Origin: Sabellastarte sp. h YS-2021
Lineage: Eukaryota; Annelida; Polychaeta; Sabellida; Sabellidae
Length of the DNA: 64,000 nucleotides
Assembly (NCBI GenBank): GCA_964017235.1
Contig: OZ024933.1
Location: forward strand, 91,417,432 to 91,481,431
Reading direction: 5' to 3'
The translations under genes and the position numbers were made by a program. Below the pieces are notes generated by a model, which ran no database searches, was not told the origin of the DNA, and saw only the letters and a program-made list of their open reading frames with translations. Shown here in pieces: positions 867-38,325 of the stretch (the first letter of the stretch is position 1; each line of letters opens with the position of its first letter).

Positions 867-902
867 TTGAAAAATTTTGTTGTAATTTTAATTTTTATTA
901 GA

Positions 903-1074
903 TAAATACTTACCATTTCCTGACCATTGCTATATGTTGGTGCCATCCAACTCACTGGCCAACGTTGAGAAACGTTTTAAGAAACCTTAAGAGGCCAGTG
1001 AGTGAGTGTGAACTAGCATGTCCCCCTAGTGGTCATGTGACCACGCTAGTAAACAACCTTCATTATTTTTGTTG
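903..1074. repeat. Element 1 left inverted terminal repeat
   Basis: It runs from ACTTACCATTTCCTGACC through CCATCCAACTCACTGGCC to the CTTCATTATTTTTGTTG block, and is repeated in inverse orientation at the right end. It contains the palindrome GGTCATGTGACC, which includes an E-box of the CATGTG type. An inner imperfect palindrome, GGCCAGTGAG with CTCACTGGCC, is also present. Confidence 0.88.
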
Positions 1075-1122
1075 CAGAAAATACTCCCCTAGTACTGAAT
1101 CTGCGGGGAGGTAGGGGGGGAC

Positions 1123-1235
1123 TCTCCTGGTCAGGAAATGGTAAGTATTTATCTAATAAAAATTAAAATTACAACAAAATTTTTCAATTTTATTGCGAAA
1201 AATACACTTACCATTTCCTGACCATTGCTGAATGC
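1123..1235. repeat. Element 1 internal complementary region (ICR)
   Basis: It reads as the reverse complement of the right terminus fused to the left terminus: GGTCAGGAAATGGTAAG, the AT-rich outer bases, CAATTTTATTGCG, then CTTACCATTTCCTGACC. In DIRS elements this region is thought to template completion of the circular cDNA ends. Confidence 0.85.
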
Positions 1236-2255
1236 AGCCTTCATGGAAGGAGGGCAGTACTAGAATATAAAGACCCAGTACACCACTCTGCACAGCTATC
1301 ATACACAGCACAATCCTATAGGCATTCAGATCCAAACTAACCTCCCAGATGAGGCAGTGGAACTGTTGAGCACTACAAAACAACACAGCCTTGTTGTTGT
1401 TGTTGTAGGAAGGAAGTAATCATTACAGAGACTCACTACCTAGCCTACAACTAAAACGTTATGAGAAGTTTACATTGAAATTTACATGCATACCACAACA
1501 TATAAACTTCCAACAGTCACCACATACCATACAGATCGCCTAAATCATAGTATGTAGTTGAAGTTCTCACAAATTGCCAGTTATTGCCACAGTTGAATGC
1601 TGTATCTAGACAAACATCCAACACCCACACAGGTGACACAAATATTGGAAGTGTCATCAGCATATTGTGTAACTCCAAGTCTGAATGAAGTCAACAATTC
1701 TGCCTAATATAAATACAGATAGTATGACAGATATACAGCTGCAAATGCATACTAAAGTATCAATATAAGTATCACGCATATACTTATAAGATAACAAACT
1801 GTAGAACACAATATCAAAGTCTGACCACAAGCAAACCAAGCAGGTGAGACTGAAAATTGGTAAAAAAGTTATGGTTTCCAGTAACATGCATATAAAAATT
1901 CATATACAGAAACACTATCCTAAAACCTAAAGATTCTTGCTTTGACTCGCTGCTGTTGAGAGTCAGAATTTGACTTCTCCTCAGTCAAAATGATAGTATG
2001 CCCACAGCAAGATAAGATAGTTGACCTGAAAATATCTGCTGTAAAGCCTTCCTAACTAGGCACAGAAAAGACATAATAATTCCTCATTGAATCCTTTGTC
2101 CCAAGTAAAAGTATTTCAAAACCTCACAAGACAAAGAGATCTATCTTGAGTAAAACTGCTGTCCCAGTGATTGAGAGCTGGCATATCGACCGGCTTAACT
2201 GAAGTAGGCCCATCCGAAGCCAACTGAATCTTGGCTAATAAATGGCCAGAGCCAC

Positions 2256-2480
2256 TTACTCATTCAAAGTAAGGGAAGACAAAGCCAACGAGAATACCCT
2301 TCTTCCTTTGCCTAATGCCAAAGTCAAAAGAAAGACTGTCTTGAAAGTTAATAAACTCCAAGAAATCTTCCCCAAAGGCTCAAAAGGCTGTCTGGTGAGA
2401 CCAAACAAGACCAGAGACAAAAGGAAAAGAAGGCTTAACCTATTGGCTACTGGATTGTCTCTATAGAAATATGTCAACAA
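2256..2480 (-). pseudogene. Tyrosine recombinase remnant of DIRS element 1
   Basis: The short minus frame contains LTRQPFEPLGKISWSLLTF followed by KTVFLLTLALGKGRR. This aligns with LTKAPFEPMKDTDLKHLTLK and the TAFLLALASSKRRSEIHAW segment of element 3, the first catalytic-arginine region. Only this block is open; the HxxR and Tyr boxes were not found intact. Confidence 0.75.
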
Positions 2481-2716
2481 TCTATACAGCTGAAGAGTTC
2501 TAGAGACTTATTCCCCTTCAAGGAAAGCAATCTACCATTGTTATTCTGTAACCAGCAATAGTAGATGGCTTAAGATTTCTTTCCTTAAAGAAATAATTAA
2601 GGAAATTTGCTACATCTAGAAAAGTAGTATCTGAGAAGTTCACCACCAAGAAGCCTCAGATGTGCATAGATTTACCAGGTCCCACAACCAAGAACATCCA
2701 CCATGACCATCATGAT

Positions 2717-3100
2717 TCAATCATGATGAATCTGCAACTGAAGGTGGTCATCTTCTAAATCACCTGAAGAATCTTTGGCTATCCTGGTGCAATCATGATG
2801 ATTCTGCACCTGTAGGTGATCATCTTGAGTCACCTGAGGAATGAGAGCCACTGGAACAAACACAAAGCTGTCCAGATCCTCCCAAGAAATGAGTAATGCA
2901 CCTGTTCCCCAAGCCCCACAGTCTAAGAAAGGAAACACATACACTGGAAGCTTAAGATTCAGGTTGTTGGATACCAATGGCATAATGATTGAACTCACCA
3001 GCAAGGGAAGCCTTAAAAGGAACCTTTGTGGAACAGATCCACCAGATCCCAAAAATAAGACATCCCTAGCCACTCTGATGCCATCCAGATGATTCTGCAC
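2717..3100 (-). pseudogene. RNase H C-terminal / DAM-like remnant of DIRS element 1
   Basis: The frame contains NLNLKLPVYVFPFLDCGAW and the GTGALLISWEDLDSFVFVP block, matching LNHKLPLYVSPIPDPQAWDI and following residues in element 3. Another frame at about 3055-3085 matches the PGWPGMPWFWDLVQ box. A duplicated stretch of about 75 bp (2704-2850) has grown inside it, which shows decay. Confidence 0.72.
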
Positions 3101-3610
3101 CTAAATCTTGGAGTAGCCCTTCTTAATAGGTACAAAAAGAATTTTCTTGCCTTTCCTGAGATTTTTGACTTATCCAGATAACCTCTCAAGGCTCTCCCTG
3201 GACAAAGAAACCTATCTTGACCAAAGCAAGATCTAAAGAAGGTTCCAAAGCAGGAATGACTACAGGTTGCAAACCAAAGGAGCCTTAGAAGCCAAATGAT
3301 TCACCTGCATCACCTGAAGAATCAAGGTCACAGGACCAAACAAACTGTCCAGTCCATCCCAAGAAAAGTTGAAAAAGACAAGCTTGTGGTTCAAACTAGT
3401 TGCAAAACAAATCCATCATTGGTGATTGTAATCAAAGACAGATTTGATTGAACACCTGAATCAGAATAGAAGATTCAAAAGTCATCCAAAAACACATTCA
3501 ATTTGAATCATCTTGATTCTCATGAACAAAGAATTTGTTGGAATATTGTATACCCTGGGAAGTGATATGCCTGAATCTGAACCCATGGCATTCGTCCAAA
3601 GAATGATTCT

Positions 3611-3949
3611 TCAGATAAGGAAACACATTCCTGAAAGCGGGTACCTCCCTACCTGTTCAGATAGGAAACCACTGAAGAAATATCTGGGGAAATCAACAGA
3701 TTCAGAATCCGAATCAGACCTCCAAATGATTCTAAAGGTAGTAACCCTGTTAATGTGGAGTCTTGACCCCTCATGATACAACAGACCACTGGCTGTTTGA
3801 TGCCATAATTGTGCATCCCAACCCTTAAAGAAAGCATCTAATAACAGAAGGAGATTGTGCTCCTTCTGATGAAGAAAAGGAAGCTCCTGCAAATTGAAAA
3901 GTCGTTCCACCACTGAAGATGGAACCTGAGAACAGAAAAACTGGTACAT
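3611..3949 (-). pseudogene. RNase H remnant of DIRS element 1
   Basis: The stretch LLLLDAFFKGWDAQLW followed by SGLLYHEGSRLHIN matches FTDASNEGWGAHL and KGLWSPQEKGLHIN of element 3. The first catalytic Asp is retained in DAF, but the following Glu-bearing ELKA helix has become RVTTFR, so it is not a working domain. Confidence 0.68.
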
Positions 3950-4082
3950 TATCTGTGTATTATGTGTGGTATCTGTGGTACATTTAATTTAGCAGATAGC
4001 CTTGGGGTTACCTGATAAACAAATAACCCAATGGCACTGTTTTCTCCTATGAAGCCATACCGCCACCAAAGAAATGGCTTCC

Positions 4083-4352
4083 TTAGAAACCATTAGCCGG
4101 AGAAGATGCTTTGCTATGAGTAAAGATGTACCCTAAGGTGGAATCTGCAATCCAAACTAAAAATCCTGGTTTTTTTTTTTTTTTTTTTTTTATAAGCTGG
4201 TGACACCCAATGCCGTCTACTGCAGCCATCAGGTTCACTATCCGTTGATGCCATACAAAAGTCGAAAATAAACCATTTCCAAGAGCAAAGCAATGAAATG
4301 GTCTATACTGGTAAAGCATGATGCGTTCTTCTAGATGCCACATTCTCACCAT
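4083..4352 (-). pseudogene. Possible RT-RNase H linker remnant of DIRS element 1
   Basis: The text MVRMWHLEERIMLYQYRPFH resembles the MRPFQF linker that opens the RNase H frame in element 3, and its position between the RNase H and gag remnants fits. The match is short, so I hold it loosely. Confidence 0.4.
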
Positions 4353-5301
4353 GGACTAACATAGCAAACAGGCAGTGAACCGGTGTGAATTGTCATCAAC
4401 AGGGAAGTGAAGATAAGAATTGCGTGAATCCGGCTACGAAAGAATGCAACTGTAAGAAACGAGTGGACACACCCATTCACTTACTAGTAACAATTAATTG
4501 CGAAAATCCCAACTATGCGAAATTAAGGTACATGTAAAGGTTTATTACCTGACCTCAACTATTAGTGGTAGCCATCTCTTCCCAGCTTATCACAACCGAT
4601 AAAGTGTAAAATTGTAGGGATATCACCATCTCACTGGTATTATCGCCCTTTTGTCGATCATTCCATACACAGCTTTATGCAAACTGATCTCCCGCATTTT
4701 ATTCATTTATTCTTAAAACACATGTCCACAACTGCTTTAGGAACATGAATAAGTACTCCTTCCTGCTATTGTTGCTTCTGTGAAAGGTAAAGTATGGTTG
4801 AAAAAATTATCCTCTTACTATGTTGAGATGTAAGGTGTAGAATATCTGCCACTACTGGACAAACATTCCTCCTAAAGATTACTCCTAACCCCTCTAAGTC
4901 TTACAGAGGAGGAGAGTTTTGTAACAGTGTTGGAGGATTAATTATCATAATGGGAACAAAAAACTGCCCTGGGGCCCATCTGTAACCATGTGTAGGAGTT
5001 TGCTCCTTCCCAGACAGAAGAAACATTATACAACCAAGATCACAAAATGAAGTTTTCCTGAGACATCTGCCAAGAGTACAGCAGGAGAAAACCTCATTAA
5101 GAGTGAAAAATGCACTTTTATTCTACCAAAATCATCTAAGAGATAAGATAGAGAAAAGTAAGACTTGTAACACTCCTGATGAGTAACAAGTTGAAGAACT
5201 GGTCAACGCACTGTCCAAAAAACATCCAGGATCATTGAAGACTGTAATTGAAAATACTGTACACAGTCCAAGGTAGTACTGGATATTCTATGAGATTCCT
5301 G

Positions 5302-5895
5302 TTAATCCTTAAATTCTTGAAGACCTCCTGACAGAGGTACTGCTAGATAACTCCAAATTATTAAATTCCAAGATTTGACATGATTATGCTGCAAGAAACA
5401 CAGAGAACCTGTATTGTTGAACAAAATCTGACAATGGGTACATATAGGTCTCATGTACCGGTGCCGGTTGCCAGTAGAAACCCTACATAACCCGCAGAAT
5501 GAGAAAGCTAATTTGTGAGATGAAACACAACTCCGGTCATCTGACAACCCGATTCCAGACCTTTTGGGAGGTATGGAAACTCGATTGTCTTCGGATGACG
5601 TCATGCAGGTATTTTCCTCCGTGCAAACGTTCCGACTGAACTTCACCGGATAAGTTAATCGCAGTGACAGTTCAGACGTGTACTCGGAACTTCTCCACAA
5701 TGATGCCTCCTGTTGTGAAAAAAAAAAAAAAAGATGTCTGCCTCCATGGGGAATTCCTTCTTGACGTCCTGTTCGACTGAGAAGTACGAAGTGAAAAATA
5801 GCCTCCAAACGCCTGGTTGTTAGAACCCGACGAATGATCAGGTTTATATCAATCGAATTATTTCTGTCATGGCGACTCCCTTGGTTGCCTAGCAA
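5302..5895 (-). pseudogene. Possible gag N-terminal Cys-cluster remnant of DIRS element 1
   Basis: A 197-residue frame contains CVSSHKLAFSFCGLCR and PICTHCQILFNN. The C..C spacing resembles CNHFC..GYCPSCR..TCQIC at the start of element 3 gag. It lies where gag should start relative to the right end. The rest of the frame shows no similarity I can see. Confidence 0.45.
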
Positions 5896-6284
5896 CCTGT
5901 AAACTGTCCCTGCCGGAGCTACTAGACTGCCGACAGTTTCAGTGTTTTATTGTAAATCTTCAATCTCGTGAAAAAACAGAATTGATAAAAGAACTTGTCC
6001 CATCCTCATGTAACACGAGCCTTTTGAAGAATAAGAAGAAATGTGAATTGAAGAGTCGTCTTCATCCAACAACGAAACATCAATACCGCCATTTTACAAA
6101 TAGTGGTCATCAATCCCCATAAAATGGCCACAAAAACACAATTCCTCTGTGCTATTTTCCTTAATTTTGTCCTGAGAAGACATTGTATACACATATGTCT
6201 TATCACAGAACTCCAAAAACGCACCAGAAGTCCAAAAAACTTAATAAAATGAGAATTGAAAATCAACATCCACACTCTAGGATG

Positions 6285-6455
6285 GCCAACAAAAATAATG
6301 AAGGTTGTTTACTAGCGTGGTCACATGACCACTAGGGGGACATGCTAGTTCACACTCACTCACTGGCCTCTTAAGGTTTCTTAAAACGTTTCTCAACGTT
6401 GGCCAGTGAGTTGGATGGCACCAACATATAGCAATGGTCAGGAAATGGTAAGTGT
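6285..6455. repeat. Element 1 right inverted terminal repeat
   Basis: This is the inverse copy of the left arm, ending AATGGTCAGGAAATGGTAAG. The outermost bases TTTTTCGCAATAAAAT follow and are mirrored in the internal complementary region. Confidence 0.88.
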
Positions 6456-6472
6456 ATTTTTCGCAATAAAAT

Positions 6473-6620
6473 ACTAATTTTGGGGAAAGACGTGGATCAT
6501 ATTTTGGATACAAAAAAATCATGAATTTTCATAGGTCCCATTTCAATGTATTTTAATGATTTTAGCTTTCTACTTCATATTTCTTCAAAAGTAATTAATA
6601 AATTTTGATGTCAAATTTGA
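6473..6620. repeat. Right half of the interspersed repeat split by DIRS element 1
   Basis: It contains CATATTTTGGATACAAAAAA and CATAGGTCCCATTTCAATGT, matching the continuation of the intact copy at 7180-7290. Confidence 0.7.
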
Positions 6621-6779
6621 AGTAGGAAGGGACTAGCCATGGGAAGGAGTGATTATAGTTTAGGAAAGATCCAATTAATATATTGGATACCAAGAAGCCT
6701 CCAGAATTTCTGGAAATGCCACCATGATGGATGTGTGTTATACTTTATAACACTTGTGAGACTGGTCACATCGAGTCGA

Positions 6780-7410
6780 GCGTTTTGCTCTCTCTGAGTG
6801 CATCTTGTTTGTCTTGAAATTGACATAAAGATAATAAAGGGGGGGGTGGGGGGGTGTATTCATCATTTTTTTAAATTATTATTTCTGTTTTATGTTCTCT
6901 TTTTTCTCTCAATTCCTTGACAGGCCATCAAAAAAAAAAGAAAAAAAATTACCATGACTGATTTTTACTAAGAAGTGACTTTTAAGCAATATTTTTTTAC
7001 CTCACCCAGCAGTTTATGTTCTTGTGTGCTAATTGTCTATTTGTCTGTCTCTCTGGCTTTTTTTTTTTTTTTTTTGTGTGTGTGTTTAGATTACTCCAGA
7101 ACTAATGAACAGATCTTTATTAAAAGTTTTTGTGGGCAGAACCTGGCCAAAGGAAGAAGTTGCTAAAAAAGAAAAATCTAGATCTTATTTTGGATACAAA
7201 ATAATCAAGAGTTTTCAGAGGTCCCATTTAAATGCATTTTTAATGACTTTAGCTTTCTACTTGATATTTCTTCAAAAATTAATTTACATGTTTGGCTTTA
7301 TTTTATTGTCTTCTTTACAATACTTTATATCACTTGAGAGACTGGTCACATGGAGTCGAGCGTTTTGCTCTCTCTGAGTGCATCTTGTATAATTTGTATT
7401 CAAACTTGAA
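6780..7410. repeat. Second copy of the same interspersed repeat
   Basis: It includes the spliced-together version of the two halves above. A G-rich tract (6838-6854) and poly-T tracts lie inside. Paired phrases AGTCGAGCGTTTTGCTCTCT occur at 6775 and 7356, so there is some internal duplication. Confidence 0.65.
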
Positions 7411-9475: not shown

Positions 9476-11096
9476 AGGTGACCTTCATGATTTTATCAGA
9501 AACCTGTTGATTTTGTCCAAAACATCCAACTTTTAACAACCATAATGATTAACTATATCTGGTTGAGTTGTTCTGGTTATAATTGGTGGTATCTGAATAT
9601 ATTTTACTTGTTTCAAATTTAATTGAATCTGTTTAGTCTGAGTTCTTGTGGTAGTTAACTGTTTTCGAAATCTCTGAATCAGCTAAACACTTGTACAACC
9701 TTGAAGCTGATTACTACAGTTATTTGTTTCACCCTTAGTCATTTGATTGTGTATGTATGTTAGACCTAAGTCACTGCAACGTTGGTCAATCTACTCTTAA
9801 AAGCCTTCTTTGCAATTTTTCTATTGGTCAAATTTCATGACCTAAGTGAGATTTCCAATGACATATATATAGCGGAACTATGTTGAAACTACACTTTCTT
9901 TTCTTTTTTGGTCACCAATAATACTGGGAACAATCAATATGTACAATCAATTAATACACTACATACGTCACAATTAGCAACAGACAATACACTCAGAGAC
10001 AACAATAATGGTTTAACACTACCAAAAACACACAACTAACAAGTATCTCTGGAACCGTTCACTTTTCCTTCAAATATTTCACGATTAAATTTATGCCATC
10101 TTTGATTTTCACATCAACTCCCTCCTTTACATCAACTCCTTTCCTCCTGAGACTACACTTAATTGTGATATCACAACTTAAAAGAGTGAAGATATACCAT
10201 TAATATACAACATTTAGTGAATCATGTTTAACTGTATAAGGACCGACATGGAATGGGTCTTACAGAGAAGTCTGAAGGAAGCATTGGGAGACAAAATGCT
10301 TTGTCTCTTCTCTTACACAAAGCTTGTATAGGCCTAAAAAGTACAGACAAATTCACTAAGAACGCAGTATCTATACTCAGCTTAGGCTCAAGTTGGGTTC
10401 TTTACCCTTAGTATTGTAAGAATAGGATGTGTCAAATGGGTTTCCACCTAATACATTTGGGCAATTATTGCAGTGGGTTCTTATTTGAACACATTCTAGG
10501 ATAGGGAAATTATATGATTTTACTTTTGAGGAATAAGACGGGTTGAAACTACAATAGTCAACAAAACCCATCTATCTGTTGATGGACAGTATAATCTGCT
10601 TGACAATGAAATCCTCTGTTAAGCCTTTATAGTCATAACAGTACTGCTTCTTAATTCCATGGTGGGTAAAGGAATTCAGTGACACTTGCCATGTATGTGT
10701 TATGGATTGCTTTTCAGTTGCACTTTATGTTTTTGTCTCTGCTAAAGTTGAACCTTAAGCTACTCTTATAAAACTTATATGTCAAGAGCTCTCAATACTG
10801 TACATAAGTTTATATCACTTATTATTCTTCTACAAATATATCTTTAATGGTGGTGGACAGATGTATTTCATTCTTGTTGTATATAAATATTCATGTGAAG
10901 TCTGAAAAGCATAATTATGTAATTATTGTAAACTTGTCCTTTACCACATAGGGATTGGCACTTTTAAAATAAGGTCTAGTCATGTTAGACATCTGAATAC
11001 ATAGTTTGCATTTCTAATTACTTCAGTCTACTCTGATCACAGATGCTCTAAACAATAGAAGATTTTGTAGTGTGGTAATTGTCCATACAAATAAAT
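9476..11096. other. Gene-free intronic DNA
   Basis: AT-rich with no long frame, no repeat structure and no CAMKK exon motif that I could find on the minus strand. Confidence 0.5.
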
Positions 11097-11370
11097 TGTA
11101 AAAATTTTATTGTAATTTAACTTTTTATAAGTTAAATACTTACCTTATCCTCACTAGTGCTTACGTGTTGGCGGGAGCAAACAAGTACGACCAAACGAGA
11201 ATATTTTTAAAATAAATATTCTTGTCGGTACCAGTATGTATACGCATGACCGCGCATGGCGTGCACCGGAAGAACCCCGTTAAGCCTCACTTTAATTTTG
11301 GGAGTCAATATAATATATTGCAAACCCAAAAATCTTGAAAATGTGGGGTTGGCCGGGCGGGAATCCAAAT

Positions 11371-11473
11371 CTAGTGAGGATAAGGTAAGTATTTAACTTA
11401 TAAAAAGTTAAATTACAATAAAATTTTTACATTTTATTGCGTAAAATAACCTTACCTTATCCTCACTAGTGCT
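11371..11473. repeat. Element 2 internal complementary region
   Basis: It begins CTAGTGAGGATAAGGTAAG, passes through TTACATTTTATTGCGTAAAA and ends CTTATCCTCACTAGTGCTTG. Its reverse complement equals the right end joined to the left end, which sets the element limits at 11097 and 16279. Confidence 0.83.
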
Positions 11474-12805
11474 TGATTACAACCATACTGGTGGTGGGAT
11501 TTTTAATATTTTTGCCACCAAAAGCAGGTACAACCAAATGAAAAGTCAAAGTACATATCTCAAGAAATCTTGTGAGTACCAGACTATATTATCCAATAAA
11601 AGTAACTTAACAAAATAACATTTAATAGTTATATATGTAAGCACTACCTGGCAACCTTCCCAAAGGCGCCTTGGCCCTGCATGTATCTTTATATCCAATG
11701 TACTAATTTAAAACACACTTGTGGTGATAAGTACAAGAGTATGATAGGCATACTTAGCAACATAACAACATAACCTATGTAGTTATATTCTGTTATTAAG
11801 TAAACTGGAATTGTCAAGAATACGCATTGAAAAATTCCCACCTTGGAATTTTATAACACTAAATACCAATGTGTTCCCCAACCATGGACAGGCGCATTGG
11901 TAATAACAGGAGATTGTGCTCCTTTATATGGATAAGACCACCTACTAACCCATTCCTTGGGCCTTTACACCAGATCAGATGCTTACCCAAAAACAGGAAC
12001 CTGATTTGGTATTTCCAATGGGCCTTCAGGTAGCCCTAAACAGCGTGATCTGGCCATTGGAACTGTACATATACATACAATTACTGTAATGTATCATACA
12101 ATACACAACTTATGAAGGAACCACATGGCGATACTATCGTTCCAACGATTAATCTGACCTTCATTAGACTTTCAGGTCACAAGTTAAAGTATAAATTGTG
12201 GAGTGTGACTTCCAGCCATATAAGGAGCAATTTGAGCCTTGGCCAAAGAAACATTCTAAGTTTCAAGGTCAAATATTTGACCAGCTAGCAAAACTGTCTG
12301 CCTGTTGACATGGTAGCTCCTTGAATGCCTCCTGAAAAGTACATACATATACACACATGCACAGTATAGCACATACTTCCCCTATCTAAGATCTGAAAAA
12401 TATCAAGATAAAATCTTAGAGCTCTAAAAGGGGCAAAAGGTCATTTCTTCAGTCAAAGAATGATCCAGACTAGCATAAAAGCAGGAATGAAAACCAGCTT
12501 GAACAATATTGTGACCCTCTGAGGTCATCTGTTCTCTGCTAGGAGTATTGATGAAGGAGAAACTGTGAACTCCTTCCAGTTGTGTGTTCAATGATTTGAA
12601 AGATCAAACACCCTCACCTCTCTATCTACCCGAGGCTAATGCCATGGATTCAGATGATTCAAGAGTCTTTGTCAAGACTAAGAATAATCAAGCCAAGTCC
12701 AAAGAGTGTAAAAGGTATAGCACCATCCTTCATTGGTCCATTCTCAGAAAACCACTATCAATCCATTCAGTCCATTACTATGGATGATTTCAAAAATGAA
12801 CTCGA

Positions 12806-13062
12806 ATGAAACCCATGTATCAGTCTACTGAGTTCATAAGTATGAATGATTTTCACAGTGAACCCAACTGGAAAACCATGTATCGGTCTATTGAATTCTT
12901 ACCTAAGAATTACTTCAATAGTGAACTCAAAAGAAAGACCATGTATCAGTCTATTGAATTCATACCTATGAATTACTTCCATTATAGTGAACCCAACTGA
13001 AAAACCCCATGTATCAGTCTATTGAGTTCATAACTATGAATGATTGCAGTAGTGTACCCAAA
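12806..13062. repeat. Tandem repeat of ~75 bp inside DIRS element 2
   Basis: Four imperfect units carry ACCATGTATCAGTCTATTGA and ATTCATACCTATGAATTACT. Variation between units is moderate. A short open frame across three units is a by-product. Confidence 0.8.
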
Positions 13063-13292
13063 TGATTAGCAATAACATCCCTGTATCATGGCAATGTGGT
13101 AGAAACCAGATTTTGCCTGTGAATCAAAGGCTCAAAAATCTGCTATTGAGAAGAGAGGAGGATACTGGAAGACCAACTGAATCTCTTTGCATCAGATTCA
13201 AAAAGAACTACCTTGACCCTTTTATTTTATTTTTTTTTTTTTTTTTTTTTTTTGAAATATGGCAGGCTATCTTGACTCTATTTGATAGCTGT

Positions 13293-13490
13293 TCACAGAG
13301 ATTCCTCTATTCTGTAGGGCAAAAGTGGTTTGGAGAATAAGTCAAATAGATCCCAAACCAACACATCCCTGGTCACCCTGGGGCTCCTGGTAGTATGTAA
13401 GAAGTATAATTCCCATTTTTTGTACCACCTCTGAAATGAGAAATACTCAAAAGTAGGATACTCAAAACATCTACCGCCATTGTATTGCAT
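13293..13490 (-). pseudogene. DAM-like remnant of DIRS element 2
   Basis: Reading the minus strand, PGMCWFGIYL in one frame and TRSPRVTRDVLVWDL in the other correspond to PGMPWFWDLVQ and NSPRLARDALVLG of element 3, which also overlap in two frames. This double match supports common origin. Confidence 0.62.
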
Positions 13491-15244
13491 TGTATTAGGG
13501 TATTAGACTGGAGAAATAAACACAGATAGTTTGTTCTTTATCCTTGAAACAAAACTATCTATCCTTGCAGTGTGCCAAATTGGCAAAGAATGCGAAACTA
13601 TAGGATGAAGGACATTCTGTTTGAATGGCTTATCCCTGTATGAAAAGAGGTTGATATCACATCTTGACAGCCCTAACTGTGTCGGGCCCTCAGACAGTGT
13701 TGTGGGCTTCCAAAGGACCATTAGATATCAGACCCTCAGACACATATCTAATGAATGGGTCCCTCTTGTTAAGATAAGACAACACTGTGCCATGCCATTA
13801 TCTGAAGTAAAACCCAAACAAACTTGTATGTACACCATCCATAAACTCCTGAAATACCCCACTTCCCTTCTATGGGGACACTTCATCTTGCCATGGTTGA
13901 ATTAGTAAGTGCTGTGATGGGATGAGTTCTGACATCAAGGTTATCACCCCATGTACAAAGTATCCCTAAACTTCTCAAATACCAGACTTCTTCCTATAGG
14001 GACACTTCACCCTTGCCAAGGTTGAATTTGTCACCAAAGAACTGGAAGTGTTTCACTGGGATGAGTTCTAACCCCCTGTAGTTCTGTACACAGGCCACTA
14101 ATTGCTTCGATTTCTACAAGCAAATATGCGATGTTGGTGACAGCATATAACCAGTGTTCCCGATACACGGACAAATTCGAATGGATCCGTTGCCGTACCG
14201 AAGTGTAGAGCAGTGAACTGAAAAGAATGACCTATGACAGGGTGCATTCTTCCAGCAGCAAACAATTAATGAAGCATAACACTTTGATGTACCTGGGGTT
14301 GAGGAAGAACGCGTCTGATAGATGTAACACGACTACCTATCCACCTCACAAATGGAGTACCGATTACCTTGGAATTTGCATTGTCAGAGCCGTGTGAAGC
14401 TTGATATATACACTACCCTCTCAGGTCACCAATATACTGTAAAACTGTAGGTTGTACACATGTTACTGAGATTTACTGAACATATAGAAGCATTTGAAGA
14501 CCACTTCATTTTTATTGTTGTTTCCTGTCAGAATATATAACCGCTATGAATTGTGGGGATTCTCGACAATTCGATAAGGTAGTTCCAATGTTCAACAGCA
14601 TTGCAGAATGTGCCCAACTTGGAAATGAGATTCGTTTTAAACTAGATGTTGCAGTAAAACAACCTCCATCCATCATTTCTTTATATCTTGGTTGTCACAT
14701 CCCTCTGATGGATTGTGATGCATTCTGTTAAATCTTGTCTGTTGTACCAACAAATACCTTGTGACATATTAGTGGTATATGTGATACTGAATAAGTTCAT
14801 GCTGCAAATTCCTTGCCATTTGATGCCTCTTCTTTAATTTCTAAAGCTTCCCGATAAATGAGAAGAAAGAAATTAGATCTGAATGTAGGTGAGCAGTGAT
14901 TCAACTTCTTAATGAAGTGTTGGACTGCTGGAAGCAAAACATTGCAGTATTTCTATGTATGTGATAGCTGTTGGGTGTGTTCTCCCTGATCTCAAGCAGT
15001 TTGTGTCGAATCTACCCTAGCAAAGACAGGGTTGTAACTTGTTTCCTGTTCAAGTTGTCATCATGAAGCTCTCCCAGCCGTGGATACCTTGCCTGAAGTA
15101 TGAGAGGAATAAGAAAGCCAGATTTGTGGTGACATTCTAGTTCCTAGCTAGAAGAAAACCTTCATTAACAGCCTAATCGTCTTCTTCTGTTGTTGAAAAT
15201 AACTGACCAGTGAAATTTAATTTGAAAGAAATCTCTGTTGACCA

Positions 15245-15690
15245 AGTGCATTCTCTGCCGAGTTTACTCTACCAGAGGAAGCCCTGCCATTTGCTTGCAA
15301 CTGAAGTTCCTGTAAGTTGCAGTTGTGAAACCATCTGATGAGAAGAACCTTATTCTTGAACCCTTCTTCTGTTACAGGATTGCCTCTGCCATATTTACCT
15401 CACTAGAGGAGTCAGAAGAATTACTCTTTTTTGAGATGAAGATCTTATTCTGGCCACCTTTCGCCTCAAAGCACCGTGCAGTCCCTGCTAAATTGCTTCA
15501 CCAGAGGCAGAACTGTCATTTGTTTGCAAATGAAAATCTGTAGCCTGTAGGTGTGACCTATCTGATGAGAAGAACTTCTGTTTATGGTGGATTCTTCTGT
15601 TATAGGGATTGCCTCTGCCATATTCACCTCACTAGAGGAGACAGAGGTACTACCCTTTTATGAGAAGAAGTCTTTATGAAGAAATGCAGA
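15245..15690. repeat. Tandem duplication of ~235 bp inside DIRS element 2
   Basis: Two diverged units share CACCAGAGG.., ATCTGATGAGAAGAAC and TTGCCTCTGCCATATTCACC followed by TCACTAGAGGAG. They lie between the decayed body and the right arm. Confidence 0.7.
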
Positions 15691-16499
15691 TTCTGTCATC
15701 TTCCATCTGAATTAAATAAACAATGAAGCCGAGATTCTTCTGCATAATAAGAGTGTTGATGGACCGTGCATAGCTTCTAGACGTGCTAGTATAAGCTGCA
15801 GAGGGTCAGAAGGTGAATTCTTTTCTCAATGTCGAGGAAAAACTTATTCTTAAATGGCGAACAGGACCCTACCCTGCAGTACCCTGTAAAAGGTCTGCAA
15901 GCGCCGCAGATCCAGTAAAAAGCAGACTACTCAATGAGGAAGGCTGGCAAACCACAAAGAAAGAATAACTCTTCCAATTCTTATGAAAGAGTGAATTCTT
16001 TGCAATAATAACATTCTTCACATCTTCTTCCTCGCCAGCCATGTTGAAATTCTTCGCAAACGAAGATCGTGTCAAACGATGTTTACTCCCTCACGACCAA
16101 AATAAAAGTGAGGCTTAACGGGGTTCTTCCGGTGCACGCGCATGCGCGGTCATGCGTATACATACTGGTACCAACAAGAATATTTATTTTAAAAATATTC
16201 TCGTTTGGTCGTACTTGTTTGCTCCCGCCAACACGTAAGCACTAGTGAGGATAAGGTAAGGTTATTTTACGCAATAAAACATATATATAACCAGTATCTT
16301 GTAAATAACTCCTTTTGATATTTATATTCTGTGTAAGGTTTTAAAACACATGTTTAGTTTTGGTATCTATTGACTATTGTACAAATTCTATTGTCTAAGA
16401 TACACATCTGGTATAATTATGTAATTACACTCCTTAATGTCCTACTTCATGTCAATGAAATTTGAAAATTTTAATTACTTAAATGTAGCTTTTATTGCG

Positions 16500-16682
16500 C
16501 TACAAGCTTACCATGTGGGACTGAATGCTTTACTGGTTGCCGCGAGGTACAGACGACCAACGCTCGAGAAAAACAAGCATGCAGTTGGTTCGGCCTCATA
16601 GGTTGTCGTGACGTCATCACTTCCTGTGTATCAGCCTCCTTTTCGTTGAGATTAAACCCATGTCCCCTCAGCTGTAATACAG
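16500..16682. repeat. Element 3 left inverted terminal repeat
   Basis: The arm includes AAGCTTACCATGTGGGACTG, CGCTCGAGAAAAACAAGCAT and the CRE-like TGACGTCA. It is inverted at 22560-22720. The arms differ at a few sites (GCGAGGTACAGACG here, cgtctgtgcctcgc opposite). Confidence 0.88.
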
Positions 16683-16702
16683 CGGGGAGGTAGGGTGGGA
16701 CT

Positions 16703-16812
16703 CTTCTCAGTCCCACATGGTAAGCTTGTAGCTTATAAAAGCTACATTTAAGTAATTAAAATTTTCAATTTTATTGCGCTACAATAGCTTACCATGTGGG
16801 ACTGAATGCTGA
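16703..16812. repeat. Element 3 internal complementary region
   Basis: It reads TCAGTCCCACATGGTAAG, then CATTTAAGTAATTAAAATTT and CAATTTTATTGCGCTACAAT, then CTTACCATGTGGGACTGAAT. Its two halves complement the left and right termini, defining ends at 16462 and 22733. Confidence 0.87.
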
Positions 16813-17282
16813 ATTCAACCGCCCGGTGGCGGGATTACAGCTGAGACTGGAAGGTCTGAATGTTGTTTTTCTCGAATTGAGAGTAATAAAAAATAGTTCC
16901 AAAAAATTTCCAGTCTGAGTCCCATTTACAGAGTCCCAATCCTGAAGGTCGGACTTGTAAAGAGCCAAAAACCTGATGAGAATACACAGTGTCGTACACT
17001 GTAGGGTGTTTGGAAGGAGGATTGTGTACCCGGAGTACACAGATAGGAAGAACCCCTAAGGGCTATGACGTCAGAAATGAGGTCAAGGTTCGAGAATTGC
17101 TATTTGCAACCTTATTTATAAGACAACCTTATGGTCCCAAGAATTTAAAGTTAATGTAAATTTAATATGTGTGACCTTACCTGTAACACCCTGATGAGGT
17201 AGCTTATACCTAGACCTGGGGAGACTCCTGAAGGCTTAGCTGTAGCGGACGTGCCCCCCCCCTTTTGTTTCCGAAGAAGACA

Positions 17283-19319
17283 TCACTGAGGAGAAGGGTC
17301 TAGGACTTGTTGAGCCGCTACTACTGGTCCCAGATACATGTTGTTGTCGTTGTCCGACCAAGTAAGGTCTTTTAGATAAAAATTGGTAAACGTGTTGTGA
17401 GCTTTCCAGTGACACGCTTGCATGATCTGGTCCACCGATACCCCACCGTAAAAAGCCTTAGAGGCTGCGAAGGCCCTAATGTCATGCGCTTTAACTTGGA
17501 CTAAGTCCAAGGCTTGCTGGTCTGCTTGCTTATAACAAAGTAGAATGGTTTGTTTCAACCATGAAGAGAGAGTAGCGGGTATGATATCTGAGGTATGTCC
17601 TTTCTTGAAGGAGATGAAAAGAAGGGACCGGGACCCTCTCAGGTCCTTGGTTCGGTCCAGATAGTACCTCAAAGCCCGTACAGGACACAAGGTCCTGTCT
17701 TCTTTGAATTGTCTATCTACAATGGTAGTCAAGGCAGGAATAGTCACCGGAGACACACTTTGAGAACCTTCTCTTGCTAGCTGGTTTTTGGCTATAAAAT
17801 CTGATGAAGGGAACAAGGCTACCTTTTCCCATTGGCCTAGATTAGATACTTTGTTTGCGACCCAGGCGTGGATTTCACTGCGGCGCTTGCTGGAGGCCAG
17901 AGCTAGCAAGAAAGCAGTCTTGAGAGTGAGATGTTTGAGGTCTGTGTCTTTCATAGGCTCAAAGGGCGCTTTTGTGAGCTCATTGAGGACAACAGATAGG
18001 TTCCACTGAGGAAGGTTTCTGGAACTCTTGGGGCGATCCCTGTGAAAACTGGAGAGCAACCTGTGAAGGTCCTCATTATGGGCAATATGCTGGGCCGTAG
18101 GACCCAGAGTGTCAACAATAGCTGTCCTGTAACCATCAATGGTAGAGGGGCGCCTGTTTAGGTCTTGGTACAGATACATAAAGAAATCTGAGATTTGCTT
18201 CACAGATGGTGAGGAGAAATCCACCGAATTATCTCTGCACCATTTTTCAAATAGGGCCCACTTTGATTTGTAGATGTTCCTTGTTGAAGACCGCTGAGGT
18301 GCAGCAATTCTCTCTGCCACTTCCACAGAGAAGCCTTGTTCTTGGAGTTGTCCACTCCTAGAGACCAGGCGTGGAGGTTGAGGTGCTGCGGGGAGCTGTG
18401 GAACACGAAGTTGTGGGACTGCTTGAGGAGTGTTGTCGACACCGGGAGTTGTAGAGGGATCTCTGTTGAGAGCTGCACTAGGTCCCAGAACCAGGGCATC
18501 CCTGGCCAGCCTGGGGCTATTAGTATGATCAGGCAGGTGCATTGCCTGATTTTTTGGATCACCCTGTAAAGGAGAGCCGTTGGAGGGTAAGCATAAGCAG
18601 TGAGACCCGTCCAGTCTATGTTTAGAGCATCTATGTCCCAGGCCTGGGGGTCTGGGATAGGAGACACGTACAGAGGGAGCTTGTGGTTCAGATGAGTGGC
18701 AAAAAGGTCCACGTGGGGAGTGAACCACTTTCGGCAGATCTGTTTGAACACCTGTGGATGGAGTGACCATTCGGTCGACTGAACCTGGTTCGACCTGGAA
18801 AGTAGGTCGGCCATCACATTCAGGCACCCTGGAATGTGTCTGGCTTTCAAGATTATGTGATAGTGGTGGCACCAGGTCATGAGTCTCCACAGGAGTGCGC
18901 ACATCTCCGCCGAGTGTGTTCCCCCTTGTTTGTTTATGTAAGCTACCACAGTTGAGTTGTCCGTGGCAACTAGCACTGTTTGGTCCTGACACTGGTCTTT
19001 GAAGTGTCTCAAAGCCAGAAAGACAGCTTTCAATTCTAGGACGTTTATGTGAAGTCCTTTTTCCTGAGGTGACCACAGACCTTTTGTAGAACTTTGTTCT
19101 AAGTGAGCGCCCCAGCCTTCGTTTGAGGCGTCTGTAAAGGGTTGGATACTGTGGTCTTTGGGATGAAGGTCGGCGCCTATCATCACCTTTGCAGGATTCT
19201 GCCACCAGTCCAGATGAGCAGAAATGACTTCTGTCCAGGGAAGGAGGCTGTCCAGCGACTGAGGAGATTTCCAGTGCTCTTTCAGGTGAAACTGAAACGG
19301 TCTCATGTGAAGGCGTCAT
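17283..19319 (-). CDS. DIRS tyrosine recombinase
   Basis: A 678-residue open frame has its convincing domain in residues ~318-678. There is an N-terminal core-binding part (TRNIYKSKWALFEKWCRDN.., STIDGYRTAI) and a catalytic part with KRRSEIHAW (Arg ~479/480), AHDIR (His ~612, Arg ~615), CHWKAHNTFTNFYLKD with His/Trp ~637-638 and the nucleophile Tyr ~648. This Arg-His-Arg-His/Trp-Tyr set is what DIRS elements use instead of an integrase. The first ~310 residues overlap RNase H/DAM in another frame. They are Pro/Ser/Arg-rich with no domain I recognise, and may simply be an open shadow; the real start could be near 18370. Confidence 0.9.
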   Translation of the reverse strand: MTPSHETVSVSPERALEISSVAGQPPSLDRSHFCSSGLVAESCKGDDRRRPSSQRPQYPTLYRRLKRRLGRSLRTKFYKRSVVTSGKRTSHKRPRIESCLSGFETLQRPVSGPNSASCHGQLNCGSLHKQTRGNTLGGDVRTPVETHDLVPPLSHNLESQTHSRVPECDGRPTFQVEPGSVDRMVTPSTGVQTDLPKVVHSPRGPFCHSSEPQAPSVRVSYPRPPGLGHRCSKHRLDGSHCLCLPSNGSPLQGDPKNQAMHLPDHTNSPRLARDALVLGPSAALNRDPSTTPGVDNTPQAVPQLRVPQLPAAPQPPRLVSRSGQLQEQGFSVEVAERIAAPQRSSTRNIYKSKWALFEKWCRDNSVDFSSPSVKQISDFFMYLYQDLNRRPSTIDGYRTAIVDTLGPTAQHIAHNEDLHRLLSSFHRDRPKSSRNLPQWNLSVVLNELTKAPFEPMKDTDLKHLTLKTAFLLALASSKRRSEIHAWVANKVSNLGQWEKVALFPSSDFIAKNQLAREGSQSVSPVTIPALTTIVDRQFKEDRTLCPVRALRYYLDRTKDLRGSRSLLFISFKKGHTSDIIPATLSSWLKQTILLCYKQADQQALDLVQVKAHDIRAFAASKAFYGGVSVDQIMQACHWKAHNTFTNFYLKDLTWSDNDNNMYLGPVVAAQQVLDPSPQ
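18200..19306 (-). CDS. DIRS RNase H plus DAM-like methyltransferase domain
   Basis: A 368-residue frame begins at the ATG overlapping the RT stop. RNase H motifs are complete: FTDASNEGWGAHL (~57-69), the ELKAVFLAL helix with Glu ~91, TDNSTVVAYINKQGG (~115-129), and ARHIPG..NVMADLLSR with Asp ~166. After this comes the region that DIRS families share and that is usually described as DAM/N6-adenine methyltransferase-like: VDLFATHLNHKLPLYVSP (~199-216), QAWDIDALNIDW, and ILIAPGWPGMPWFWDL (~261-276). Enzyme activity of this domain is not established. It is overlapped throughout by the recombinase frame. Confidence 0.9.
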   Translation of the reverse strand: MRPFQFHLKEHWKSPQSLDSLLPWTEVISAHLDWWQNPAKVMIGADLHPKDHSIQPFTDASNEGWGAHLEQSSTKGLWSPQEKGLHINVLELKAVFLALRHFKDQCQDQTVLVATDNSTVVAYINKQGGTHSAEMCALLWRLMTWCHHYHIILKARHIPGCLNVMADLLSRSNQVQSTEWSLHPQVFKQICRKWFTPHVDLFATHLNHKLPLYVSPIPDPQAWDIDALNIDWTGLTAYAYPPTALLYRVIQKIRQCTCLIILIAPGWPGMPWFWDLVQLSTEIPLQLPVSTTLLKQSHNFVFHSSPQHLNLHAWSLGVDNSKNKASLWKWQRELLHLSGLQQGTSTNQSGPYLKNGAEIIRWISPHHL

Positions 19320-20439
19320 GTAGAGACATCAAACATCTTGCAGTCAAAACATGTTTCGACTTGAGTCGTAGGATCAAATCCTGAAGTTTGAGCCATCTCT
19401 CTTGAGTGGGTTTTACAAGGGCTGAATCTAGGTGGTATTCGTAGCCCACGAACGAGAACACCTGAGTTGGTTTCAGTTCTGATTTCTCTTGGTTTAAGAT
19501 CCATCCCAAGGACTGGGTGAGATCTACCACTGTCCGAGTGTTCACTAATGCTTCCTCCTGGGACTGAGACCTGATCAGCCAGTCGTCCAGGTATTGATGA
19601 AGTCTGAGTCCTCTGCTGAGGGCCATGAGCTTCACTTCTTTGACGACCATGGTGAATACCTGGGGGGCTGTGGCTAGTCCGAATGGGAGCGAGGTGAACT
19701 GGAACACCTGTGACCTGTGGCAAAATCTTAGATACTTCCTTGAGTTTGGATGGATGGGGATGTGGAGGTAAGCGTCCGACAGGTCTATTGACGCTACCCA
19801 TTCCCCCGGAATCAGAGAAGTCCTGATGGACTCTGGCGTTTCCATTTTGAACTTTTCTACGTGTAGAAAAGTGTTGAGCCTGCTTAGGTCTATTACTGGC
19901 CTCCACCTTTGGTGAGGCTTGGGTACAAGAAAGAGGCGACTGTAAAACCCGAGAGATTTTACATTTTCCACCCTTTCGATAGCGTTCTTTAACAGGAGAG
20001 ACTGGATGCAATCGGCCAAGGCTTGGTCTTTTTGAGGGGCCTTGTACTCTGACACAATCAGAGGAAATCTTATCAAGTTTGGCCTTGAGAGGAATGGCAG
20101 AACGTAGCCATTGGTGATGATATTTAACACGTTGGCTGAGCAATTGTTTGCGTGCCAGTCTCTCCTGAAAGAACGGAGGCGACCTCCTACTGGTGGATTG
20201 ATTGAGGCTTGATAGGAGTCATTGGGAAGAGGGGTTTCCACGCCCTTTTCCTTTGTTGTGGGGTCGAAAACGACCCCTGGAGCCTCTGAAGTTTGGTTTT
20301 CCTCTAGAAGAGGGAAACGAATAGTTGCTGCTTTGGGAGGAATTGCCCCCAAAGGGGCGTTTCCTGTAGGAGCCTCTTCTCTTATTGTGGTGGGAACCAC
20401 GAAAGGGCTTATTTTGGTAGGGTCCGAAACCCTGAGCAT
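19303..20439 (-). CDS. DIRS reverse transcriptase
   Basis: A 378-residue frame has a clear RT domain from about residue 88. Motifs seen: LVPKPHQRWRPVIDLSRLN (~171-189), SIDLSDAYLHIPIHP (~217-231), LPFGLATAPQVF (~251-262), YLDDWLI (~283-289) with the catalytic Asp pair, and FVGYEYHL. The wording (DLSDAYLHIPI, YLDDWL) is typical of DIRS and related RTs. The first ~85 residues overlap the gag tail in another frame and may not be translated, so the true start is unsure. The frame ends in ATGA, where the TGA stop shares bases with the ATG of the RNase H frame, suggesting stop-restart or a -1 slip. Most DIRS elements carry RT and RNase H in one frame, so a recent single-base change is the alternative. 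Confidence 0.9.
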   Translation of the reverse strand: MLRVSDPTKISPFVVPTTIREEAPTGNAPLGAIPPKAATIRFPLLEENQTSEAPGVVFDPTTKEKGVETPLPNDSYQASINPPVGGRLRSFRRDWHANNCSANVLNIITNGYVLPFLSRPNLIRFPLIVSEYKAPQKDQALADCIQSLLLKNAIERVENVKSLGFYSRLFLVPKPHQRWRPVIDLSRLNTFLHVEKFKMETPESIRTSLIPGEWVASIDLSDAYLHIPIHPNSRKYLRFCHRSQVFQFTSLPFGLATAPQVFTMVVKEVKLMALSRGLRLHQYLDDWLIRSQSQEEALVNTRTVVDLTQSLGWILNQEKSELKPTQVFSFVGYEYHLDSALVKPTQERWLKLQDLILRLKSKHVLTARCLMSLHDAFT

Positions 20440-22309
20440 CTTTTGAGGTGCCTTTTTTGAGAAGGAAGTCCTCGCCTTCCTTCACTGACTGGGAGTTGAA
20501 CAGGGAACGAGTCCAGAGAGAGGAATTCCTGAGCTCTTGACGTCTGGTTTCCCCTAATTGTGGCTGCAGATGGGACATTTCGGCTTCGCGTCTAAGCAAG
20601 CTGGAAGTTGCCATTGTGTAAAGTTCCCTTTGTAAAATATGGGCAAGGGATTTGCTCAGGCAGGTTATGGCCTTATGTTGAATAGTGAGGGTCTTCTCCC
20701 AGAGATCAAAGTAGTCATAGGCCTCATCATAACCACGTTTTACTGCTTTTTCAGGGTCGGCACCTTTCCTGACCTGGGACTTGACCTTCTTGAAGGTTTC
20801 TTTTAGTCCATAACGACACCTCCTCATGGTAGAGTTGCAGGAGGAGGATGTCTTGGCAAAAGTGGTCGTGAAATTCAATGTGGTTAGATTGTACCTTGCC
20901 TGTTGTTCTAAGTCCTTGAGGACAGAGAGTGGGACCTTGCCTAAAGGGGCCCCCGAAGGTTTAGGAGTTATACAGATCTTGGCAAAGTCTGCATTTAAAT
21001 CTTGGAGTTTCTCCGAAAAACAAGGTTGTCCAACCTTGTACCACTTAGAAGTGGAAGGGGGGGGCTTTGGGTATTTGCCCTCTGCCAGGTTTGCAGCCAT
21101 AAGGTCATTGTTGAATTTGTCAAAGGCATCTCTTATACCAGAGTTGAGGGGCAACATAGCTGATGGACCCGTAGGTCTCAGCTCTTGGACGGCCACCTCG
21201 TCATCGATACCTATGATAGCAGTAGCAGGTCTGGGGACTGAATCCCTCGGATCAGGTAATTTGAGGATACGTCGAAAAGTATCTACCTCCTCCGCATATT
21301 GATTTGGGATGTCAGCCAGAGCCACATCCCTATAGTAGGGCGGATCAAGGTCAAGTTGAGGATGTTCCTGATCATCAGAGGCCATTCTCTGGGGCTTGGG
21401 AGACCTGTGTCTACGTCTAGGGGACTGATCCTCCCCTGACGATGAGGGCAAATATGCGGACCTTGACTTATGTTTAGACTTGTCAGAGTGCTTTTTAGGT
21501 CTAGAATATGAAGGGCGATCATGATCGGAATCAGATCCCGAACCTGAGATTGGAGCATGGCTAACCTTGTGAGTGGACGTCTTGGGGCAAACAGACTGTG
21601 TCTGTTCGGAAGAGCTAAGACGAACGTCCGAACCTTGCTCGGCCTGAAGGCGAGGAGGAAGAGAAGGGCCATATTCAATATCCATGGGTTCTGAAGCACT
21701 GACAGAGGTCTGAGGTTCGGTGCGAACAGCCGAAGAGGCGATCTTATCAGCCAGCCCTTGTTGAGATTTTAGGAAATCTTCACGCATAGATTTAAGGGCA
21801 TCATAGATGTTGGCTTGAAAAACACCAAATTTCTGATCAAATTTGTGGTCCAAAGACTTTTCTACAGAAGAATGGACTTTATGATGTAAGGCTGTACTGG
21901 GAGTGGGAGGAACAGTACGCCCTGGTGTAGTAAGAGGCAAAGGATCGAAAGATAAGGGTCTGGGACGTGGAGGTGAAGTAAACAAATGATCGGCCGCAGC
22001 CTCAAGTTCGGCTTGCGATCCAGAAAACGATTCAAAAGAATCGCCAAGTACCTCGTCCCGATCTTTGTCCGATGCCTGTGAAGTGGGATGTTTTTTCTTG
22101 TATCGTCTTCTATTAGCAATTTTAGTGGACTGTTCGTCTGTGAAAGACGCACAGATTTGACAAGTACCAGCTTTTGTAACACACAGATCATCGCCCTTCC
22201 CTGCATCTCTGCAGGAAGGGCAATAGCCATGACTGTCGAATGGCTGACAGAAATGATTGCATTTGCTGGATCTGGGTTTATCTTTAGAAGACTGGTGGGC
22301 GGTGGCCAT
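20219..22309 (-). CDS. DIRS gag-like protein
   Basis: A 696-residue frame starts at the ATG at 22309, the first frame inside the right arm. Residues ~17-60 form a Cys-rich cluster (CNHFC, YCPSCR, TCQIC spacing) that may bind metal, followed by a basic RRRYKKKH patch. The middle is rich in Ser, Pro and Asp with RRRHRSPKPQR-type basic stretches. Residues ~380-600 look helical. The tail (~640-696) is Arg/Gly/Asn/Ser-rich (RGSRGRFRPHNKGKGRG), a typical nucleic-acid-binding end. DIRS gag proteins are poorly conserved, so the name rests mainly on position and composition. Its 3' end overlaps the annotated start of the RT frame by about 220 nt. Confidence 0.8.
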   Translation of the reverse strand: MATAHQSSKDKPRSSKCNHFCQPFDSHGYCPSCRDAGKGDDLCVTKAGTCQICASFTDEQSTKIANRRRYKKKHPTSQASDKDRDEVLGDSFESFSGSQAELEAAADHLFTSPPRPRPLSFDPLPLTTPGRTVPPTPSTALHHKVHSSVEKSLDHKFDQKFGVFQANIYDALKSMREDFLKSQQGLADKIASSAVRTEPQTSVSASEPMDIEYGPSLPPRLQAEQGSDVRLSSSEQTQSVCPKTSTHKVSHAPISGSGSDSDHDRPSYSRPKKHSDKSKHKSRSAYLPSSSGEDQSPRRRHRSPKPQRMASDDQEHPQLDLDPPYYRDVALADIPNQYAEEVDTFRRILKLPDPRDSVPRPATAIIGIDDEVAVQELRPTGPSAMLPLNSGIRDAFDKFNNDLMAANLAEGKYPKPPPSTSKWYKVGQPCFSEKLQDLNADFAKICITPKPSGAPLGKVPLSVLKDLEQQARYNLTTLNFTTTFAKTSSSCNSTMRRCRYGLKETFKKVKSQVRKGADPEKAVKRGYDEAYDYFDLWEKTLTIQHKAITCLSKSLAHILQRELYTMATSSLLRREAEMSHLQPQLGETRRQELRNSSLWTRSLFNSQSVKEGEDFLLKKGTSKDAQGFGPYQNKPFRGSHHNKRRGSYRKRPFGGNSSQSSNYSFPSSRGKPNFRGSRGRFRPHNKGKGRGNPSSQ

Positions 22310-22559
22310 GTTTTAATGCAATAAAATATGAAAATACTCCGAACCGTAGATTCGAGCAGTACTAGTGTAGTGGCGAGCACACAACACGTGAAATAAGAAG
22401 ACGTTAAAAAACTGACAAAATACAGCACCGGAAGTGCTGAAAATTGGGTATAAGATTCTATACTGCTAAATAAAGGAAAAGCCGAATTATGGACGAATGA
22501 CAAACAATATATCCAGAGATATAATAGAAAACAGCTTTGAAAACTTAGCAGAGCATCCA

Positions 22560-22722
22560 ATATGGCGGCGACCAACGAAAAGGAGGCTGATACACAGGAA
22601 GTGATGACGTCACGACAACCTATGAGGCCGAACCAACTGCATGCTTGTTTTTCTCGAGCGTTGGTCGTCTGTGCCTCGCGGCAACCAGTAAAGCATTCAG
22701 TCCCACATGGTAAGCTATTGTA
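22560..22722. repeat. Element 3 right inverted terminal repeat / presumed 5' promoter region
   Basis: This arm lies upstream of gag on the coding strand. It holds GATGACGTCACG (a CRE-type palindrome) and, just inside, CCAATATGGCGGCG, which in reverse reads like a YY1 box. A promoter role is inferred from position only. Confidence 0.75.
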
Positions 22723-22733
22723 GCGCAATAAAA

Positions 22734-38314: not shown

Positions 38315-38325
38315 GAGTTTGCTTT

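Follow-up and report, generated by a model that had tools for sequence, protein, structure and literature searches.

A large, recently active family of DIRS elements with a dead coding interior, very probably mobilised in trans, in the genome of a sabellid polychaete

Here we describe element 1, a 5.6 kb mobile element with coding direction minus at positions 867-6472 of a 64,000-nucleotide stretch of contig OZ024933.1 (C7 in our numbering) from the polychaete Sabellastarte sp., a stretch that we call the window and whose positions are used throughout. Element 1 has the anatomy of a DIRS retrotransposon on the minus strand, and its coding blocks are broken relics. We consider it very probable that it belongs to a large, recently active, non-autonomous DIRS family mobilised in trans. 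Stop codons shared between copies, near-identical copies and a high copy number support the original prediction, made from the letters of the window, that a defective element had recently been moved in this way; the helper is predicted, and the copies read are part of the family. All sequence searches were run on the 1.786-Gb assembly (GCA_964017235.1), and in general the best 40 matches of a search were scored or its first 100 places taken.

Read from left to right, and thus from its 3′ to its 5′ end, the element opens with a terminal sequence at 867-907, complementary to the left half of an internal complementary region (ICR), and continues into the 3′ arm of an inverted terminal repeat at 908-1074. 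A self-comparison of the window pairs this arm with the 5′ arm at 6287-6453 over 167 of 167 complementary bases, where identity over ~150 bp had been noted. The ICR at 1128-1234, with the circle junction at about 1185-1190, does match both termini: 60 of 60 bases agree with the left end (867-926 against 1187-1128) and 43 of 43 with the right end (6430-6472 against 1229-1187). It is adjoined at 1235-1264 by a conserved stretch that forms the inner edge of a conserved 3′ block. On the other side of the element, the 5′ block consists of a conserved inner edge of 22 nt (6265-6286), the 5′ arm and a terminal sequence at 6454-6472, complementary to the right half of the ICR. These limits lie within a base or two of those first given. 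RNA folding of 867-1264 is dominated by pairing between the end and the ICR (z -14.7), an outcome dictated by the repeats that adds no independent evidence; a promoter and terminator scan found nothing, the scan being a bacterial one and not meaningful here.

According to a survey (PMC3266345), DIRS1-like elements carry an ICR near the 3′ end, join their ends at a 3-bp circle junction and make no target duplication. Element 1 resembles them in its inverted arms, in an ICR near the 3′ end that is complementary to both ends, in its short circle junction, A/T-rich termini and lack of target duplication, and its length (5.6 kb) and arm (167 nt) fall inside the ranges seen in that survey's table. 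It differs from them in that no gag or reverse transcriptase (RT) was detected, and RNase H and tyrosine recombinase (YR) are dead relics common to the copies read.

Coding remains were sought by tblastn with the four long frames of E2, another DIRS element of the window, at a threshold of E 1e-2. A broken RNase H relic lies on the minus strand at 3874-3305 (E 4e-4) and holds four stops, each present in 22 of 22 other aligned copies; further pieces related to the RNase H of E2 extend down to 2822 (2822-3129). The latter fall within a relic of the E2-type YR frame at 3252-1875 on the same strand, which runs through several frames and carries internal duplications and stops (best E 3.6e-16). The relic alignments contain ten in-frame stops, two of which fall where element 1 has insertions compared with E2, in keeping with the prediction that every coding block is broken. 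No gag or RT was matched in element 1 at this threshold with the E2 frames, Pfam gave nothing above a cut-off for the relic frames, and the 5′ interior at 3900-6264, the part most different between subfamilies, lacks a recognisable gag or RT. The YR name rests on a weak, sub-threshold Pfam match of the E2 frame (PF00589, E 0.029), on gene order and on motifs that we take to be those of the enzyme. DIRS1-like elements encode RT, RNase H and tyrosine recombinase together; since no RT was found in element 1 and its RNase H and YR are broken, it is a non-autonomous derivative and not an autonomous DIRS.

Nine of the ten in-frame stops are common to all other copies aligned there, with 2-24 copies per stop (23/23, 24/24, 24/24, 2/2, 20/20 and four times 22/22), and the tenth is present in 22 of 24. 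Because the copies sharing these stops lie on different contigs with different flanks, the interior was already dead by the time they arose; the element died before it multiplied. Variable sites in four relic stretches number 33, 36 and 37 at codon positions 1, 2 and 3, against a third-position excess in the E2-type control L010 (34/48/94 in RT and 29/23/62 in gag); a second E2-type control, L011, gave 18/21/31 in RT and 47/25/97 in gag. Stop-to-stop frames in 25 copies or part-copies reach at most 214 aa, apart from one of 335 aa in L030 that sits in an insert and resembles, by eye, the RT of a LINE. An intact relative that would place the breakage after insertion was seen neither among these 25 nor among the 14 rare 5′-end types described below.

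The copy in the window is far from unique. The genome search that had been proposed, with 867-1235 as the query, gave 1534 candidates, and the best 40, which were scored and include the window copy, match over 369 bases at about 100%. From the interior, 3050-3650 gave 1277 candidates genome-wide, with 40 of the best 40 at 99-100%, again including the window copy. An exact 42-mer of the arm occurs 435 + 439 = 874 times (reversed control 0), and the 22-nt inner edge of the 5′ arm, searched as a freer pattern with one extra loosely set base, occurs 268 + 265 times (control 0) with many different continuations. Among the first 100 arm places, all on contig C1, 74 form 37 inward-facing pairs and 26 are unpaired; the spacing is 5.1-5.45 kb in 28 of the 37 pairs. 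Twenty copies, best by their left end, were fetched, and the right arm was reached in 17 of them (not in L021, L025 and L027), counting L010, whose right end is truncated. Many copies thus carry the same dead interior, as would be expected of a non-autonomous family moved in trans.

A comparison of ends with interior cannot rest on copies selected for their left end, and therefore 20 further elements were taken by their interior: subfamily B elements, chosen by 5300-6260 as the highest-ranking not yet fetched, in which only aligned positions were counted. The comparison of arm and interior divergence that had been called for was made on this set. Differences from element 1 amount to 1 in 621 bases in the left terminus (in L037, 6 of its 41 bases aligned), 9 in 2579 in the left arm and 7 in 3113 in the right arm (0.22-0.35% for the arms), 0 in 324 at the right end over 6454-6471, 11 in 1605 in the ICR (0.69%), 13 in 795 at 1075-1127 (1.6%), 0 in 450 at 1235-1264 and 0 in 440 at 6265-6286. 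The interior directly beside the left end, 1265-1600, differs at 124 of 4754 bases (2.6%). Ends are thus more conserved than interior in copies selected without regard to their ends, again as expected of a family served in trans.

The set chosen by ends (22 copies, 231 pairs, mean pairwise divergence) follows the same outline, with 0.09% at 867-1074, 0.96% at 1075-1127 and 0% in the ICR and at 1235-1264, then 3.2% at 1265-2500, 3.1% at 2501-4000, 5.9% at 4001-5200 and 14.3% at 5201-6264, and finally 0.79% at 6265-6286, 0.22% in the right arm and 1.06% at 6454-6471. In 200-base bins, identity to element 1 is 91-100% from 1267 to 3866. Among the 12 full copies that do not belong to subfamily A, it is 69-86% over 5267-6266 in ten and mixed in the other two, L013 and L017; at about 6265 it changes abruptly, to about 100% in the arm.

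Movement has been recent. The window copy and L016, which lie 8.5 Mb apart on one contig, are told apart by a single difference in 5000 aligned interior bases (99.89% identity over 5610 columns including gaps), and their flanks are different, as are the left flanks among the 20 fetched copies. Five copies of subfamily A are 0.02-0.66% apart, and the two arms of an element are 0-2 bases apart in 22 of 22 copies. The copy L023 sits in an ICR like that of E3, a second DIRS-type element of the window, and its joined flanks (with the terminal TTG omitted) match the E3 ICR of the window without a gap at the junction. The joined flanks of the window copy likewise match a paralogous host repeat at 7083-7240, gapless at the junction and with a 3-base gap a few bases beyond. 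A target site duplication, absent from DIRS1-like elements, is thus absent at one clean junction (L023) and at the in-window paralogue, which are few sites; the three bases next to each end are not constant from copy to copy. The host sequence flanking element 1 (6485-6808 and 7171-7388) is repetitive in its own right, a second copy lying 580-690 bp downstream, and the pieces are 84-96% alike.

Candidates for a helper were read among unusual arm pairs and 5′-end types. L029 and L030, picked out by their arm spacing, belong to the family but are dead and carry insertions or have been rearranged, and L031 is an inverted dimer. An abundant 5′-end type with the continuation GTTATTTTAATTT (L072 and L073) and an odd type, L074, are also dead; together with the rare types, these were drawn (L072-L088) from the freer pattern of the 22-nt edge, narrow alternative continuations of the ends having given 0 hits in two pattern searches. 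Fourteen rare 5′-end types of 1.5 kb each are all family-related and have no E2 protein match. Thirteen of them have no coding-strand frame above 118 aa; in the remaining one, L076, a 243-aa frame begins in a family-related stretch and continues past it, and we take this stretch, by eye, to be Penelope-like. The dimer in L031 (362-6771 of that locus, C1:158016700-158023800) is made of two head-to-head copies of the element's 5′ half and has two 5′ ends; one of its flanks is a stretch of another family copy; perhaps it is a template-switch product of DIRS replication.

Several observations weigh against mobilisation in trans, or at least against our account of it. No autonomous element with the ends of element 1 was found among the arm pairs and 5′-end types read, which are part of the family, so supply in trans is reached by elimination; three arm pairs at 6.1-6.5 kb were read and all are dead, most of the pairs at 5.1-5.45 kb are unread, and of six pairs at 10.4-14 kb two (L025, L027) were read in part and four are unread. 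Two junctions are less clean than that of L023: L010 lies in an E2-like copy and has lost its right end, and L027 involves an E3 copy inside a copy of element 1, with a diverged target. Raw relic differences by codon position, 72/125/205, resemble a third-position excess, though they count one inherited change many times, and the E2-type YR control of L010 (89/31/46) shows no such excess, which we attribute to the overlapping RNase H frame. In the set chosen by interior, three of the 20 elements (L044, L048 and L035/L055, the element of L021) also stand in the list selected by ends, the left end could not be located in the retrieved stretch for four and is cut in one (L045), and the right arm is cut in two (L032, L046).

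Two of the other explanations are very improbable. An autonomous DIRS could have decayed in place, its perfect ends owed to luck or to gene conversion; relic coding is indeed present, and conversion could produce arms that agree within an element, but the stops and the interior are common to copies at many loci, and the twin L016 differs at a single aligned interior base in other flanks. The shared stops led us to reject this account. We give hardly more credence to the view that element 1 is of class II, Crypton- or MITE-like, and that a tyrosine recombinase moves it as DNA: inverted arms and a clean junction without target duplication would suit it, whereas the relics include RNase H, and an ICR matching both ends is, in PMC3266345, the arrangement of DIRS.

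The remaining two are compatible with a non-autonomous family mobilised in trans and concern how its ends stayed alike and who supplied the enzymes. It is quite possible, if somewhat short of an even chance, that the ends agree mainly through recombination or template switching among co-replicating elements, which would swap ends and leave mosaic interiors, and not through selection on cis sequences. The abrupt step at about 6265, from 69-86% inside to about 100% in the arm, and the inverted dimer of the 5′ half point that way; on the other hand, the conserved block spans, on both sides, parts thought to be needed in DIRS replication, and the 14 rare 5′-interior types, selected for the exact 22-nt edge, diverge inward of that edge by 12-26% from the family sequence that each matches best (in L075 the family match starts only at base 209). 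Nearly an even chance attaches to a helper that has the same arms and is rare, unsampled or lost from the assembly. With the best 40 matches or first 100 places taken per search, most places are unread, and of the many continuations of the 5′ edge a part was read, which leaves room for such an element. Against it, the 874 exact arm 42-mers make up about 437 pairs, no more than the 533 inner-edge motifs, and arms that lack the family's inner edge are therefore in no large surplus; the argument is weak, as the motifs differ in length.

Mobilisation in trans would have proceeded as follows. An ancestral DIRS would have lost recognisable gag and RT while its RNase H and YR genes decayed, keeping the presumed cis-acting sequences, namely the two inverted arms, the ICR with about 30 nt next to it, and about 22 nt on the inner side of the 5′ arm. 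The RNA copied from it would presumably be reverse-transcribed by the enzymes of another DIRS, and the ICR would then serve as the splint that closes a circle, which the tyrosine recombinase of the helper would insert at a short A/T-rich homology without target duplication. The RNA intermediate, the circle and the supply of enzymes in trans are what we infer; what we observe is the anatomy, the dead interior that copies share, the contrast between ends and interior, copies that are nearly identical, and a single clean junction lacking a target duplication. The cis requirements of DIRS replication are mostly inferred from sequence, and a family of hundreds of copies in which about 600 nt are nearly constant and the rest has drifted outlines the parts that are needed.

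Elements that kept their ends, lost their coding and are moved by the enzymes of others are known from LARD-type long terminal repeat (LTR) retrotransposons and from miniature inverted-repeat transposable elements (MITEs), which have LTRs or the terminal inverted repeats of transposases in place of DIRS arms and an ICR. The description of element 1 as a DIRS counterpart of a MITE is loose, since 5.6 kb with a relic interior is closer to a large non-autonomous retroelement. The nearest precedent we found (PMC6681497 and PMC6390901) is SIRE, a non-autonomous derivative of VIPER in Trypanosoma cruzi. Like element 1, SIRE is a relative of a tyrosine-recombinase retrotransposon that has kept terminal parts; it is about 0.4 kb long, its parent has split direct repeats and its mobility is left open in PMC6681497, whereas element 1 has inverted arms with an ICR, 5.6 kb and near-identical copies. 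A phrase search gave no paper on non-autonomous DIRS, most subscription papers and Repbase lying outside its coverage, and a word-start search found no occurrence of the word autonomous in PMC3266345, PMC3783388 and PMC4157794. The survey PMC3266345 requires RT, MT and YR domains to occur in combination, and families such as this one would therefore be left out by design and their share of genomes may be underestimated.

Of the two further DIRS elements in the window, E2 (16458-22745, minus strand) is of autonomous type, with arms, an ICR and gag-like, RT, RNase H and YR-like frames. Pfam RVT_1 and RT_RNaseH score above cut-off in it, and the gag-like frame has no Pfam family. A search with its RT gave 106 scored matches at 99-100%, 76 of them in a 772-aa open frame; as all 106 are E2-like, other DIRS families could not appear in this search. 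In the window copy, RT (392 aa) and RNase H lie in separate frames around 19303-19315, and the copy looks frameshifted. E2 shares with element 1 the DIRS anatomy, 17 identical nt across the circle junction and a GGTAAG/CTTACC motif, and differs from it in its arm sequences and its long open frames. As judged from sequence, this abundant, active-looking family is one candidate for the source of the helper enzymes.

E3 (11090-16285, minus strand) is a multicopy DIRS-type element with relic coding and an ICR 81.6% like that of element 1. It gave 445 candidates, of which the best 40, scored with the window copy included, match at 93-100% over about 500 bases; the window copy has no stop-to-stop frame of 110 aa and lacks about 370 bp that others carry (search-query position 516-519). 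At C6:121631074-121634590, two E3 interior matches lie in opposite orientation about 2.5 kb apart, possibly another inverted dimer. Tentatively, and with more doubt than belief, we suggest that at least two dead families, those of element 1 and E3, might be cross-mobilised by an unrelated active DIRS family such as E2, whose enzymes would have to recognise no more than the short core at the circle junction, without any match between the arms. The conserved stretches 867-1264 and 6265-6472, about 600 nt in all, would then outline the whole cis requirement of DIRS replication.

Elsewhere in the window, a 232-aa minus-strand frame at 37745-38443 has CCHC zinc knuckles and looks gag-like by eye, and a 195-aa open frame at 32796-33383 shows, again by eye, tandem repeats of about 49 aa.

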